DNA from: Flavobacterium ammonificans
Lineage (GTDB): Bacteria; Bacteroidota; Bacteroidia; Flavobacteriales; Flavobacteriaceae
Direction: 5' to 3'
Assembly (NCBI RefSeq): GCF_020886115.1
Contig: NZ_AP025185.1
Coordinates: 2,232,001 to 2,296,000 of the forward strand
Length of the DNA: 64,000 bases
In this document: positions 42,316 through 48,017 of the stretch, in pieces
How positions within the stretch are numbered: position 1 is the first letter of the stretch
Layout: every line of letters starts with the position of its first letter
The notes under the pieces: generated by a model
What the model was told of the DNA's origin: nothing
Seen by the model: the letters and a program-made list of their open reading frames with translations, nothing else
Databases searched by the model: none
Translations under genes and position numbers: made by a program

Positions 42316-42660
42316 ATGAATACAAATCCCAAAATCAGAACTGTAGTATTCTATAAAGACTACTTTAAAGCATTTTTTAGTAATCAACGAGAAAAGGTAC
42401 AAAAGAAAATCATTTGGACTTTAGAGCTCATTCAAGAATTAGCTAAAGTCACTGAAACCTATTTAAAACATCTTGAAAATACTGATGGTCTATATGAAAT
42501 TAGAATACAACAAGGAAACGATATTTTTAGACTTTTTTGTTTTTTTGATAAAGGAAAACTGATTGTTATAGCCAACGGTTTTCAAAAGAAAACACAAAAA
42601 ACACCTAAAAAGGAAATTGAAAAAGCATTACAAATTAAAGCCGAATATGAAAACAAATAA
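42316..42660 (+). CDS. HigB-like RelE-family toxin
   Basis: 114 aa. KIRTVVFYKDYFKAFF, YLKHLENTDGLYEIRIQQGNDIFRLFCFFDKGKLIVIANGFQKKTQKTPKKEIEKALQIKAEY. The end GFQKKTQKTPKKEI (88-101) is the signature of Gp49/HigB endoribonucleases, which cut mRNA on the ribosome. It overlaps the antitoxin gene by 14 nt (toxin first, HigBA order). Flanked by the 60-nt direct repeats. ATG lies 2 nt after a TACATTTG -7 element, so the mRNA may be leaderless. Confidence 0.9.
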   Translation: MNTNPKIRTVVFYKDYFKAFFSNQREKVQKKIIWTLELIQELAKVTETYLKHLENTDGLYEIRIQQGNDIFRLFCFFDKGKLIVIANGFQKKTQKTPKKEIEKALQIKAEYENK

Positions 42661-42946
42661 GCTACAAACACTTTCTGAATTTAAAGACGATTTCTATGGA
42701 AAAATAGGAACTGAAAAACGCACAGCCATAGAAAAAGGCTATCAAGAATTCAAATTAGGCGCTTTAATTCATGAAGCCCGAATTGAAAAAGGATTAACCC
42801 AAGAACAATTGGCTGAGAAATGTGGCACAACCAAATCTTATATTTCCAAAATTGAAAATAACATCAAAGAAGTTCGCTTCTCTACCCTTCAAAAAATTGT
42901 GGAATGCGGATTGGGTGGAAAATTAGAATTGAACATTAAATTGTAA
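42647..42946 (+). CDS. HigA-like Xre-family antitoxin
   Basis: The frame opens at 42617, but ATG at 42647 is preferred: it starts MKTNKLQTLSEFKDDFYGKIGTEKR and leaves a 14-nt overlap with the toxin. 99 aa with a HTH_3 motif (IHEARIEKGLTQEQLAEKCGTTKSYISKIENNIKEVRFSTLQKIVE). It should neutralise HigB and repress the operon. Acidic/basic balance and small size are normal. Confidence 0.9.
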   Translation: MKTNKLQTLSEFKDDFYGKIGTEKRTAIEKGYQEFKLGALIHEARIEKGLTQEQLAEKCGTTKSYISKIENNIKEVRFSTLQKIVECGLGGKLELNIKL

Positions 42947-43263: not shown

Positions 43264-43713
43264 TTATTTTACCTCTTTAGCTTTCATAAAATCTCTAGTA
43301 TCAATCAATGGAAATATCTCATTTTGAAGAATAGTTCCACGTAATTTTTCGTGTAATATTCCTCGAATTGTTCCTGCAACAATATTTAATAAATTTAACA
43401 TTAATGCATCTGGAACCTGAAATCCGCTTCTTTCTTTTTTTATTACAGTTTCAAAAGGTGTAATATGAAATTTCATCAAAACTTTTAACTCTCCAAAATA
43501 ACTATCCAACTCCTGTACTTTAAGTTTTACTGTTGTTTCAACAGCGAGTTCACTTGATTCTTCTAAAACTTTAACATTAAAATCTGATTGATACTCAATC
43601 ACATCAATTTTATTAGTGTCAAATTCTCCAATATCGTACTGAGAAAATCTCAGTACATTTATTGAAGATATTCGCATTTGAAACTGAATTTCTTTTTCTT
43701 TATTATCTACCAT
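43264..43713 (-). CDS. SecB-like chaperone of a toxin-antitoxin-chaperone (TAC) system
   Basis: 149 aa, SecB-like fold pattern: N-terminal strand region FQMRISSINVLRFSQYDI, strands VKVLEESSELAVETTVKLKVQ and ELKVLMKFHITPFETV. Then VPDALMLNLLNIVAGTIRGILHEKLRGT and a proline/Ile end FPLIDTRDF (residues 100-142), the core helix and C-terminal strand of SecB proteins. It is the last gene of a three-gene operon with an Xre antitoxin (2-nt gap) and a small toxin. In known TAC systems the SecB-like partner folds and stabilises the antitoxin. By eye only; the assignment is good but not proven. Confidence 0.78.
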   Translation of the reverse strand: MVDNKEKEIQFQMRISSINVLRFSQYDIGEFDTNKIDVIEYQSDFNVKVLEESSELAVETTVKLKVQELDSYFGELKVLMKFHITPFETVIKKERSGFQVPDALMLNLLNIVAGTIRGILHEKLRGTILQNEIFPLIDTRDFMKAKEVK

Positions 43714-43715
43714 GA

Positions 43716-44153
43716 CTATAATGATTCATACTCAACGTCTGTAACGTTGAACATTGATTTACTATTTTTTGTAAATGAAAAATTAGATTGATTCTCATTT
43801 ACATAAAACATATTTAAGTTAATAGTTAAATTAAATTGAACTCTTTCATCCAATTTATGAAGATAAACATCTTCTTTTTTTATATAAATTTTGAAATCAA
43901 ATTTTGCATCAAAGCACTTTTCAAACTTATTTATGAATGAAACATTCATATTTTTTACGCCAGACATTAATTGACTAACGTAAGACTCTGAATATCCTAA
44001 CTTTGTTGCTAAATCTTTATTACTTAATTTTTCATAATCTAAGAATTTATCAACCTCTTTCATTACTCGTAAGCTAACTAAAGACTCATCAATTTTCTCT
44101 CTATTATTATCTACATAAGACTGAATAGAAAATCTTTTTGTTACTTCGTTCAT
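43716..44153 (-). CDS. Xre-family antitoxin with chaperone-addiction tail
   Basis: 145 aa. HTH at residues 43-84 (LSNKDLATKLGYSESYVSQLMSGVKNMNVSFINKFEKCF). The C-terminal segment 105-145 (VQFNLTINLNMFYVNENQSNFSFTKN) is aromatic- and Asn-rich, strand-prone and without HTH features. That is the position and character of a chaperone-addiction (ChAD) segment in TAC antitoxins. It overlaps the upstream toxin gene by 4 nt and is followed at 2 nt by the SecB-like gene, so the three are one unit. Confidence 0.8.
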   Translation of the reverse strand: MNEVTKRFSIQSYVDNNREKIDESLVSLRVMKEVDKFLDYEKLSNKDLATKLGYSESYVSQLMSGVKNMNVSFINKFEKCFDAKFDFKIYIKKEDVYLHKLDERVQFNLTINLNMFYVNENQSNFSFTKNSKSMFNVTDVEYESL

Positions 44154-44536
44154 AAGTTTATTTTTTCGATTTGTATGTTTTCAATTGTATTTATCGTTGT
44201 TGTCAATTTTTTTGTGTTTTCTTGACTTTCTTTTTTACCATATCTATAAATAAAAAGCTCCCGATAACCATTATTTATAGCTTGAAGAGTGTAAAATCTA
44301 TGCGAATCTACTTTTATTGCATAAACTGAACCAAATGTAAAATCTGCTTCCCAATTATATTGAGTTTTATTTTCAGTTTTATTTTTAACAGCTTCTATAA
44401 CTAATACAAATTTTCTTGTCAATTTTTCATTTCTATTAATTTCAGTGAATTTCTTAGTCAAATCAGAATTACTATGATTTAGATAAACTCTGAATCTATT
44501 CTGGTGACATTCACAAATTATATAAAAATTCTCCAA
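44150..44536 (-). CDS. Putative RelE/HigB-fold toxin of the TAC system
   Basis: 128 aa, no family recognised outright. Comparing it with the HigB in this window, VYAIKVDSHRFYTLQAINN GYRELFIYRYGKKESQENTKKL (residues 71-111) aligns with LYEIRIQQ ... KLIVIANGFQKKTQKTPKKEI. It shares the strand order and the Lys-rich end that define the RelE fold. It is first in the operon, followed by an HTH antitoxin and a SecB-like chaperone. I infer an RNase-type toxin. A promoter TTG-N20-TACTTTTG (44589-44559, minus) lies just upstream. Confidence 0.62.
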   Translation of the reverse strand: MENFYIICECHQNRFRVYLNHSNSDLTKKFTEINRNEKLTRKFVLVIEAVKNKTENKTQYNWEADFTFGSVYAIKVDSHRFYTLQAINNGYRELFIYRYGKKESQENTKKLTTTINTIENIQIEKINL

Positions 44537-44558
44537 GACTTAACTTATTAGTAAAGCG

Positions 44559-44589
44559 CAAAAGTAAAACAAACATTTTGAATTAACAA
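44559..44589 (-). promoter_or_regulatory. Promoter of the TAC operon
   Basis: Minus-strand TTG (44587-44589), 20-nt spacer, TACTTTTG (44559-44566), 22 nt before the toxin ATG. The downstream leader holds an ACT-TATT-AGT palindrome, a possible operator. Confidence 0.65.
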
Positions 44590-44849: not shown

Positions 44850-47800
44850 ATGACTTTAGAACAGTATATCGACAACATCAATAAACGCTACCAATTGGGT
44901 AATGCGACTGAGCATACTTTTCGTGGCGACTTGCAGCAACTTTTAGAAAGCTTAGTGCCTGACATTAGAGCGACGAACGAACCCAAAAGACAATCCTGCG
45001 GTGCACCCGATTATATTCTGACTAAAGGAGATATTCCTGTTGGTTTTATTGAAGCAAAAGACATTGGCGACAAAGACTTGGAAGGAGCCAAAAAAACAGG
45101 CAACAAAGAACAGTTTGACCGCTACAAAGCGTCGCTGAACAACTTAATTTTTACCGACTATTTAGATTTTCATTTATATATTGACGGTGTTTTTATTACT
45201 AAAATTGCCATTGCTTCCATACATAACGGAGCTATCGTTCCATTGCCTGAAAACTTTGCCACCTTTACCAATCTGATTAAGGACTTTGCTTCACACCTTG
45301 GGCAAACCATCAAAAGCAGTAAAAAATTAGCCGAAATGATGGCGGGCAAAGCCCGACTGTTATCCGATGTAATTGAAAAAGCATTGACCACTGATGTAAG
45401 CAATCAGGAAGATAGCACCTTAAAGGATCAAATGGTAGCTTTCAAAGAAATCCTAATTCACGACATTACGCCCAAAGGATTTGCAGACGTCTATGCACAA
45501 ACCATTGCTTACGGAATGTTTGCAGCGCGTTTGCATGATGCTACTTTGCCTACTTTTAGCCGACAAGAAGCGGCAGAATTAATTCCGAAATCCAATCCGT
45601 TTTTACGCAAACTCTTTGGCTACATTGCGGGACCCGATATTGACGACCGTATCAAATGGATTGTAGACAGTTTGGTCGATATTTTCTTGGCGTGCAATGT
45701 AGAGGAAATTTTAAAGAACTACGGAAAGTCCACCAAAATGGAAGATCCGATCATCCATTTTTATGAAACTTTCCTGAGCGAATACGACCCAAAATTGCGA
45801 AAAGCGCGTGGCGTTTGGTACACACCGGCACCTGTTGTTAATTTTATCGTTCGTGCTGTGGACGACATTTTAAAAACCGAATTTGATTTGCCGCAAGGTT
45901 TGGCTGACACCAGCAAAACCAAAATCAAAGTGGATCTACAAGGCAAAAAAGTAGAACAAGAAGTGCACAAAGTCCAAATTTTGGATCCAGCCACAGGAAC
46001 AGGCACCTTCCTAGCCGAAACCATCAAACACATACATAAAAAATTTGAAGGACAACAAGGCATTTGGAGCAATTATGTAGAAACCCATTTATTGCCTCGC
46101 CTTAATGGTTTTGAGTTACTCATGGCAAGTTATGCCATGGCACATTTAAAATTGGATTTGCTTTTAACCGAAACCGGTTTCAAACCCACCAGCAACCAAC
46201 GATTAAGAGTGTACCTAACCAACAGTTTAGAAGAAAGCCACCCCGATACAGGAACCTTGTTTGCCAATTGGCTCAGTAGCGAAGCCAACGAGGCCAATCA
46301 CATCAAAAGAGATTCGCCAGTGATGTGTATTATTGGGAACCCGCCGTATAGTGGAGAAAGTTCCAATAATGGTAAATGGATTATGAACCTGATGGAAGAT
46401 TACAAAAAAGAACCTGGAGGTATAGAAAAACTAAAAGAAAGAAATCCAAAATGGATAAACGATGACTATGTTAAGTTTTTGCGTTACGGACAGCATTTTA
46501 TAGAGAAAAATGGCAGTGGTGTTTTAGCTTTTATTAACCCACACGGATTTTTAGACAATCCTACTTTTCGTGGAATGCGTTGGAACTTGCTAAAAACCTA
46601 CGATAAAATTTATACCATAGATTTACACGGTAACAGTAATAAACAAGAGAAATCACCTGATGGAAGTGTAGATGTAAACGTTTTTGATATACAGCAAGGT
46701 GTTTCAATAAATTTGTTTATTAAGACTGGAAAGAAAAAAGTTAATGAATTAGGTAAAGTATTTCATTTTGATTTATATGGTAAAAGAGAAATGAAATATG
46801 ATTTTCTTACTGAAAATACATTAAAGGATATTGTTTTTAATCAACTTGATATTTCAAAACCAAATTATTTTTTCGTTTCAAGAAATATTAAAAAACAAAA
46901 TATTTATGAAAAAGGAATTTCTGTATCTGAATTATTTACAATAAACAGTATTGGAATTGTCACTTCAAAAGATGAGATTTTAATTAATAGTTCAAAAGAG
47001 GAACTAATAAAAAATGTTAGTGAATATTACTCAATAAATGCAGATATTAATTTAATAAAAAAAATTTCTTACAGACCATTTGATAGTAAATTCATTTATT
47101 ATGATGTGAAAATTATTGAAAGAGCAAGATATAAAGTGATGAAACATTTTCTTGAAGGTAATAATTTTGGTTTAGTAACTGCTAGAAGTAATAAATCAAA
47201 TACCTGTGATCATTTTTATATTTCAAACAATTTAATGGAAACTAAATGTGGAGAAAGAACGACACAGTCCGCAATATTACCTCTTTACATATACCCAGAT
47301 AATAAAGGACAACAAACCATTGACCAAACCACAGAACGAACGCCCAATTTAAACCCTGAAATTGTCAAGCAAATAGCAGCGCAATTGGGATTGAATTTTG
47401 TGCCAGACCACGAGCTTTGTCATGCTGAACTTGTTTCAGCATCTCAACAGACCCTGAAACGAGTTCAGGGTGACGAGACAGTTTTTACTCCTTTAGACCT
47501 ATTAGATTACATCTATGCGGTTTTACACTCTCCAACCTATAGAGAAAAATACAAAGAGTTTTTAAAAATAGATTTTCCAAGAGTGCCGTATCCAAAAGAT
47601 ACCGCCACGTTTTGGCAACTAGTCAAACTAGGGGAGCAAATTAGACAAATCCATTTATTAGAAAGCCCAATTGTAGAAAAATACATCACAGGCTATCCCG
47701 AAGATGGTGATAACGTAGTTGTAAAACCCCGCTTTGTCATTGCGAACGATAGTGAAGCAATCCCAACAAATGAGACTGCTTCGTGCCTCGCAGTGACAGG

Positions 47801-48017
47801 CAGCGTATACATCAACGACACTCAATACTTTTCAAATGTCCCAGAGGTAGCATGGAATTTCTACATAGGCGGTTATCAACCGGCTCAAAAATGGCTCAAA
47901 GACAGAAAAGACCGTAAATTAGAGTTTGACGATATTTTACACTATCAAAAGATCATTGTCGCCTTATCTGAAACAGATCGATTGATGAAGGAGATTGATA
48001 CCATTGAGATAGAGTAA
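44850..48017 (+). CDS. Single-chain restriction-modification enzyme (type ISP/IIG-like)
   Basis: 1055 aa. N-terminal PD-(D/E)xK nuclease: APD (D54) followed by GFIEAKD (E68, K70). An alpha-helical connector (SDVIEKAL...) precedes a gamma-class N6-adenine methyltransferase with FxGxG-like DPATGTGTF (~376) and catalytic NPPYSGESS (~496). A target-recognition region follows (SRNIKKQN ... SYRPFDSKFIYYDVK). The C-terminus has LDYIYAVLHSPTYREKYKEFLKIDFPRVPYP and WNFYIGGYQPAQKWLKDRKDRKL. No helicase motifs, unlike LlaGI. Two palindromic repeats are translated at ~857-875 and ~963-983. Confidence 0.85.
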   Translation: MTLEQYIDNINKRYQLGNATEHTFRGDLQQLLESLVPDIRATNEPKRQSCGAPDYILTKGDIPVGFIEAKDIGDKDLEGAKKTGNKEQFDRYKASLNNLIFTDYLDFHLYIDGVFITKIAIASIHNGAIVPLPENFATFTNLIKDFASHLGQTIKSSKKLAEMMAGKARLLSDVIEKALTTDVSNQEDSTLKDQMVAFKEILIHDITPKGFADVYAQTIAYGMFAARLHDATLPTFSRQEAAELIPKSNPFLRKLFGYIAGPDIDDRIKWIVDSLVDIFLACNVEEILKNYGKSTKMEDPIIHFYETFLSEYDPKLRKARGVWYTPAPVVNFIVRAVDDILKTEFDLPQGLADTSKTKIKVDLQGKKVEQEVHKVQILDPATGTGTFLAETIKHIHKKFEGQQGIWSNYVETHLLPRLNGFELLMASYAMAHLKLDLLLTETGFKPTSNQRLRVYLTNSLEESHPDTGTLFANWLSSEANEANHIKRDSPVMCIIGNPPYSGESSNNGKWIMNLMEDYKKEPGGIEKLKERNPKWINDDYVKFLRYGQHFIEKNGSGVLAFINPHGFLDNPTFRGMRWNLLKTYDKIYTIDLHGNSNKQEKSPDGSVDVNVFDIQQGVSINLFIKTGKKKVNELGKVFHFDLYGKREMKYDFLTENTLKDIVFNQLDISKPNYFFVSRNIKKQNIYEKGISVSELFTINSIGIVTSKDEILINSSKEELIKNVSEYYSINADINLIKKISYRPFDSKFIYYDVKIIERARYKVMKHFLEGNNFGLVTARSNKSNTCDHFYISNNLMETKCGERTTQSAILPLYIYPDNKGQQTIDQTTERTPNLNPEIVKQIAAQLGLNFVPDHELCHAELVSASQQTLKRVQGDETVFTPLDLLDYIYAVLHSPTYREKYKEFLKIDFPRVPYPKDTATFWQLVKLGEQIRQIHLLESPIVEKYITGYPEDGDNVVVKPRFVIANDSEAIPTNETASCLAVTGSVYINDTQYFSNVPEVAWNFYIGGYQPAQKWLKDRKDRKLEFDDILHYQKIIVALSETDRLMKEIDTIEIE
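47419..47474. repeat. REP-type palindrome inside the restriction enzyme gene (first)
   Basis: GTCATGCTGAACTTGTTTCA ... GAAACGAGTTCAGGGTGAC with outer ends GTCA/TGAC and two inner hairpins (CTGAACTTGTTTCAG, CCCTGAAACGAGTTCAGGG). Translated as CHAELVSASQQTLKRVQGDE. The left half recurs at 41930 and, reversed, at 48421. Confidence 0.85.
47737..47798. repeat. REP-type palindrome inside the restriction enzyme gene (second, different family)
   Basis: GTCATTGCGAACGATAGTGA ... GCTTCGTGCCTCGCAGTGAC, 62 nt, ends GTCA/TGAC and inner GAAGCAATC/GACTGCTTC. Translated as VIANDSEAIPTNETASCLAV. No second copy is visible in the window. Confidence 0.8.

Follow-up and report, generated by a model that had tools for sequence, protein, structure and literature searches.

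Does the block of three short minus-strand genes in this 64,000-nucleotide stretch of DNA (the window) form a toxin-antitoxin-chaperone (TAC) system, and what kind of toxin would it carry? The first-pass annotation had read it as a Bacteroidota TAC with a divergent toxin. This reading is supported by a predicted SecB fold, a predicted RelE/HigB fold and the conservation of the genes together. As a whole, the block is probably a HigBAC-like TAC operon, in which an antitoxin (A) would restrain a RelE-fold toxin (T), a chaperone (C) would guard the tail of A, and a client protein would trigger the release of T.

The locus, its conservation and its neighbors

The triad runs in the order T, A, C from 44536 to 43264 (table 1). 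The reading frames of T and A share 4 nt (ATGA) and A is spaced from C by 2 nt, so that the ORF coordinates agree with the overlap and the gap annotated earlier. Homologues were found for each of the three ORFs, which are therefore genuine genes. In detail, a set of 5.8 billion proteins gave, with the window's own proteins counted, 113 homologues of T (from 116 candidates; 48–100% identity), 59 of A (from 67) and 33 of C (from 40).

Table 1. Features of the TAC triad and of its closest neighbors (positions in the window)
Feature	Position	Strand	Description
Toxin T	44150..44536	(-)	128 aa, TTG start, RelE/HigB fold (predicted) plus an additional beta hairpin at the N-terminus
Antitoxin A	43716..44153	(-)	145 aa, ATG start, HTH at residues ~13-90 and variable C-terminal tail at ~96-145
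Chaperone C	43264..43713	(-)	149 aa, ATG start, predicted SecB fold
Candidate -7 box	44559..44566	(-)	TACTTTTG, Bacteroidota TAnnTTTG type
Candidate operator	44539..44556	(-)	imperfect inverted repeat CTTTACT-AATA-AGTTAAG, 6/7 pairs
Gp49/HTH pair	42316-42946	(+)	higBA type, complete
Type ISP restriction-modification gene	44850-48017	(+)	

The scan of 84,980 genomes provided 55 stretches fitting the pattern, seven of which were confirmed as loci. The first-pass annotation had suggested looking for the three genes together in other genomes, and T, A and C are all present in the same order in 8/8 loci (the window and these seven). The frame of A is interrupted in a single case, locus L003 (6384-6823), where it is lost at the border of the HTH and the tail, with T and C open. 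Assembly error, decay or frame switching may be its cause; a broken A beside an open T would be hard to tolerate if T is fully toxic, unless the assembly is in error. The antitoxin homologue P0178 likewise stops at the HTH/tail border.

T is rare, since only its own genome (2.41 Mb, single contig) carries it among 40 relatives and among 395 genomes of the order. A tyrosine recombinase adjoins L002 and an AAA protein adjoins L006, and these neighbors hint at mobile elements. Carriage of the triad by phages or plasmids was also considered, and nothing was found: IMG/VR viral contigs contained no relative of T or C, the plasmid and phage records searched none of T, and the plasmid records searched none of C.

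In the window, the Gp49/HTH pair lies ~0.3 kb from the triad on the opposite strand, and the type ISP gene follows on the higher-coordinate side. Flanking the block are secA and an rRNA operon, identified from sequence; the operon was deduced from a tRNA-Ala/tRNA-Ile pair. The secA gene was matched in 40/41 genomes. Its neighbor here is absent from all 19 other genus genomes in which ~1.5 kb after secA was read by eye (L072-L090), and several of these 19 have a different gene in common at this position. Two in-frame stretches of the type ISP gene, at 47418-47477 (CHAELVSAS...RVQGDE) and 47736-47801 (VIANDSEAIP...CLAVTG), resemble repetitive-element insertions kept in frame within the coding sequence.

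Predicted folds of T and C, and features of A

The T of the window had no matches in Pfam, NCBIfam or PADLOC (the last at E <= 1), none below E 0.4 among PDB sequences, and two weak ones in PHROGs (E 0.044 and 0.11). When all 113 T rows were used against Pfam, 53 scattered families appeared, the commonest being Zn_ribbon_13 (17/113, best E 0.0015), and they were taken as chance. The alignment of the second half of T with the nearby HigB, claimed in the first-pass annotation, was not recovered: BLASTP gave none and the profile-profile comparison with Gp49/HigB (hhalign) a probability of 0.1%. The Gp49/HigB profile (PF05973) gave no match to T at an E limit of 10, filters dropping most matches above 0.1.

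The predicted model of T shows a RelE-type alpha/beta fold, as had been expected for the 128-aa protein. Its highest structural matches (VIA) are the S. pneumoniae TA toxin 6af3, which we take to be a HigB, the mycobacterial TAC HigB1 and a RelE. Plain Foldseek against the PDB found none at E <= 0.001 (best E 0.093), with a top 50 mixed with unrelated folds, and a weak match to the MqsR-MqsA entry 3hi2 (probability 0.28). The model argues against an ADP-ribosyltransferase identity for T, a match list being unable to exclude a fold. Among predicted viral proteins, the model came closest in structure to an unnamed one of 127 aa (BFVD A0A345KZC1; E 0.0022, TM 0.62).

T would most likely act as a ribosome-dependent mRNA interferase. 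A toxin of RelE/ParE fold which does not cleave mRNA and hits DNA gyrase, like ParE, or some other target seems unlikely, and with it the operon would still be a TAC. ParE structures are indeed among the VIA matches (Z 4.8-6.0, one 'YoeB/ParE' toxin reaching 6.8) and no sequence-level link from T to an mRNA interferase was found, but the ParE matches have lower Z than the three top ones. Furthermore, the invariant residues of T (K75, R80, R98, K102, N107 and K109) resemble the basic pocket of HigB/RelE, as far as it is described in the available text of PMC9098466. The first four of them are in plausible places as candidate counterparts of RelE K54/R61/R81.

C was reached by fold only. Its predicted model has the SecB fold, which bears out the SecB-like character first assigned to the 149-aa protein; the Foldseek TM-scores were modest (0.28-0.50, ranks 1-23), and the sequence searches, Pfam and PDB sequences among them, did not reach SecB. 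C matches the PADLOC model PDLC04763 (PDC-M64C) at E 6.6e-8. That C is a stand-in export SecB, located by chance downstream of a two-gene TA pair, is very improbable. The export role would be vacant, as 38/40 genomes searched, including its own, have no Pfam SecB match, but C occurs with T in 8/8 loci and T is rare (1/395), unlike what is expected from a housekeeping chaperone. In addition, the PDC-M64C loci of 12 of 49 match rows (11 distinct) likewise looked on inspection like units of three genes, with differing first genes.

A matches Pfam HTH_3 just below the cut-off (E 8.9e-5; 22.9 bits against 23) and PADLOC PDLC04758 (PDC-M64B) with E 1.5e-9 over residues 5-103. In an alignment of 39 sequences (32 of the 59 homologues, six loci and the window), the 16 invariant columns all fall within residues 13-78. 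In 24 A-C pairs, the mean pairwise identity falls from 0.68 in residues 1-95 to 0.40 in the tail. Seven of these pairs come from loci (window, L002, L004-L008) and 17 were joined only by equal-sized parent contigs; L003 was left out owing to its broken antitoxin frame. The tail had been called aromatic/Asn-rich, of which the Asn part holds, as Asn is about doubled (8 N in the 50 residues 96-145 vs 7 in residues 1-95), while the aromatics are only slightly raised (8 F/Y vs 12).

The tail of A tracks C given the HTH (partial r 0.77), a value reached by 0/2000 permutations, which ignore phylogeny. In 14 triples (seven from loci, seven joined only by equal-sized parent contigs), the tail tracks both C (0.69) and T (0.53) once the 40 HTH columns of highest variability are accounted for. 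The covariation of tail and chaperone, strong initially, was thus weakened by the control with T and is not specific. By its conservation pattern only, the tail is compatible with a chaperone-addiction segment.

Expression signals and related TAC systems

T starts with TTG in 8/8 loci, and A and C with ATG in 8/8. In six of the eight loci this TTG is the first start after the preceding in-frame stop, with additional upstream TTG/GTG in L005 and L007, and in 5/8 the rest of T is free of in-frame ATG and GTG. As a single base change would yield ATG, the TTG is probably kept by selection.

Upstream of T, TAnnTTTG, which we take to be the Bacteroidota -7 consensus, is present as TAnnTTTGC at the matching place in 6/8 loci and missing in L005 and L007; chance matches to TAnnTTTG are frequent (120 observed in the window vs 95 expected). 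Between TAnnTTTGC and the T start lies an inverted repeat of the type ACTTAAC-N6-GTTAAGT. Its 7-bp arms are perfect in five of the eight loci (L002, L004, L005, L006 and L008), imperfect in the window and L007, and reduced to 5 bp in L003. Shuffled 30-nt stretches produced a perfect repeat in 19-59 of 3000 per locus.

The triad shares with HigBAC (the Rv1955-1957 type and E. coli C496 HigBAC) the order toxin-antitoxin-SecB-like chaperone, the predicted RelE/HigB-fold toxin and an HTH antitoxin with a variable C-terminal extension. On the contrary, T has no sequence-detectable similarity to Gp49/HigB, and it differs in its N-terminal hairpin and constant TTG. According to the available parts of PMC11618068 and PMC9519451, CmdTAC (PD-T4-9) also has three genes including a SecB-like chaperone; its toxin CmdT, however, is an ADP-ribosyltransferase, whereas T is predicted to be of RelE fold. 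Similarly, MqsRAC and the HicAB-type TACs combine a TA pair with a SecB-like chaperone (PMC5105189 and PMC9519451, as far as available) but belong to other TA families.

The triad is also related to PDC-M64 of PADLOC, through the matches of A and C. T differs in matching none of PDLC04752-04756, the models hit by several PDC-M64 first genes. A PDC-M64C match was present in 43/198 genomes of the phylum, including its own. First genes were drawn by motif from 28 of 42 loci (L010-L051), giving 23 distinct ones that fall into two groups, one of 15 and one of eight members, with a mutual hhalign match of 97%. Gp49/HigB toxins are matched by the larger group (95%; reversed controls <1%) and not by the smaller (9.4%). 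The match of the larger group is an indication that PDC-M64 is probably a HigB-type TAC. T was also compared with these groups as a possible relative, and this was dropped (hhalign 0.6% with the larger, 17.5% with the smaller, E 0.0014 over 12 columns). In L014, L019 and L020, HTH genes and short first genes of a different sort come before the SecB-like chaperones, and the first genes of L019 and L020 matched nothing in PADLOC or Pfam.

Of the 15 first genes of the larger group (within L010-L049), 14 lack an in-frame ATG ahead of codon 38 and therefore probably start with GTG or TTG. In the smaller group 5/8 start with ATG, and over both groups 16/23 are without an ATG ahead of codon 38. Many of these genomes are of one genus and so not independent. 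Bacteroidota TACs may often have weak toxin starts.

The locus had also been put forward as an undescribed system. This stands for the T family, unmatched in the libraries searched, and not for the system as a whole, as TAC systems are known and A and C match PDC-M64. The 2024 Cell Host Microbe paper on HigBAC and phage may already include the T family in its account of TAC diversity. In the open-licence literature no paper on the name PDC-M64 was found, nor, among the best matches, a Bacteroidota TAC study or a catalytic, binding or phage experiment on the T family. In the part of PMC10440598 available, TAC appears in the discussion and one reference only.

Proposed mode of action and its meaning

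In the published TAC model, as given in the available parts of PMC5105189, PMC6377645, PMC11980606 and PMC11618068, the chaperone guards the tail of the antitoxin, the antitoxin both neutralizes the toxin and acts as repressor of the operon, and the toxin is freed by a competitor for the chaperone. This competitor is the T4 capsid protein for E. coli CmdTAC and the lambda major tail protein for E. coli HigBAC. By analogy, the folded part of A would bind T, and its HTH would repress the operon at the inverted repeat just upstream of T. C, of SecB fold and by analogy a tetramer, would hold the tail so that A folds and escapes degradation. Given the weak TTG of T and the ATG of A and C, T should stay below A. 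C would be drawn off the tail by a client, for which a phage structural protein present in abundance is plausible; A would then be degraded and T would stop translation. In this way the triad may block phages.

Alternatively, the operon could be a general stress or stabilization (addiction) module without an anti-phage role, a real though lesser possibility. The absence from the viral, plasmid and phage records described above is in its favor, as is the stress-induced transcription of the mycobacterial TAC (PMC5105189, in the text available). Against it, the triad has a TA pair of Gp49 type and a type ISP gene as neighbors, at a post-secA site differing in 19 genus genomes, A and C match a phage-defence candidate (PDC-M64), and E. 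coli CmdTAC, HigBAC and MqsRAC are anti-phage in the sources as available.

A further-reaching idea can be put forward, which we regard as rather doubtful. T would found a separate RelE-fold family of translation toxins of Bacteroidota TACs, with a deliberately weak start. The fast-changing tails of A would be decoys imitating the chaperone-gripped part of Bacteroidota phage structural proteins, each tail-chaperone pair being a tuned phage sensor.

TACs are a known kind of self-controlled switch, some of which stop viruses, and here the toxin is too divergent for the family libraries. Few have been tested so far, those in the literature drawn on, as far as available, being from Mycobacterium, Escherichia, Vibrio, Methylomonas and Geobacter. 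Judging from the loci gathered here, Bacteroidota seem to have many TACs with poorly annotated toxins. The triad is a small and well-conserved set that can be tested in E. coli K-12: its toxin escapes the libraries, its weak toxin start is constant and a candidate operator is present. Setting the variable tails against their chaperones could reveal what determines the choice of trigger.
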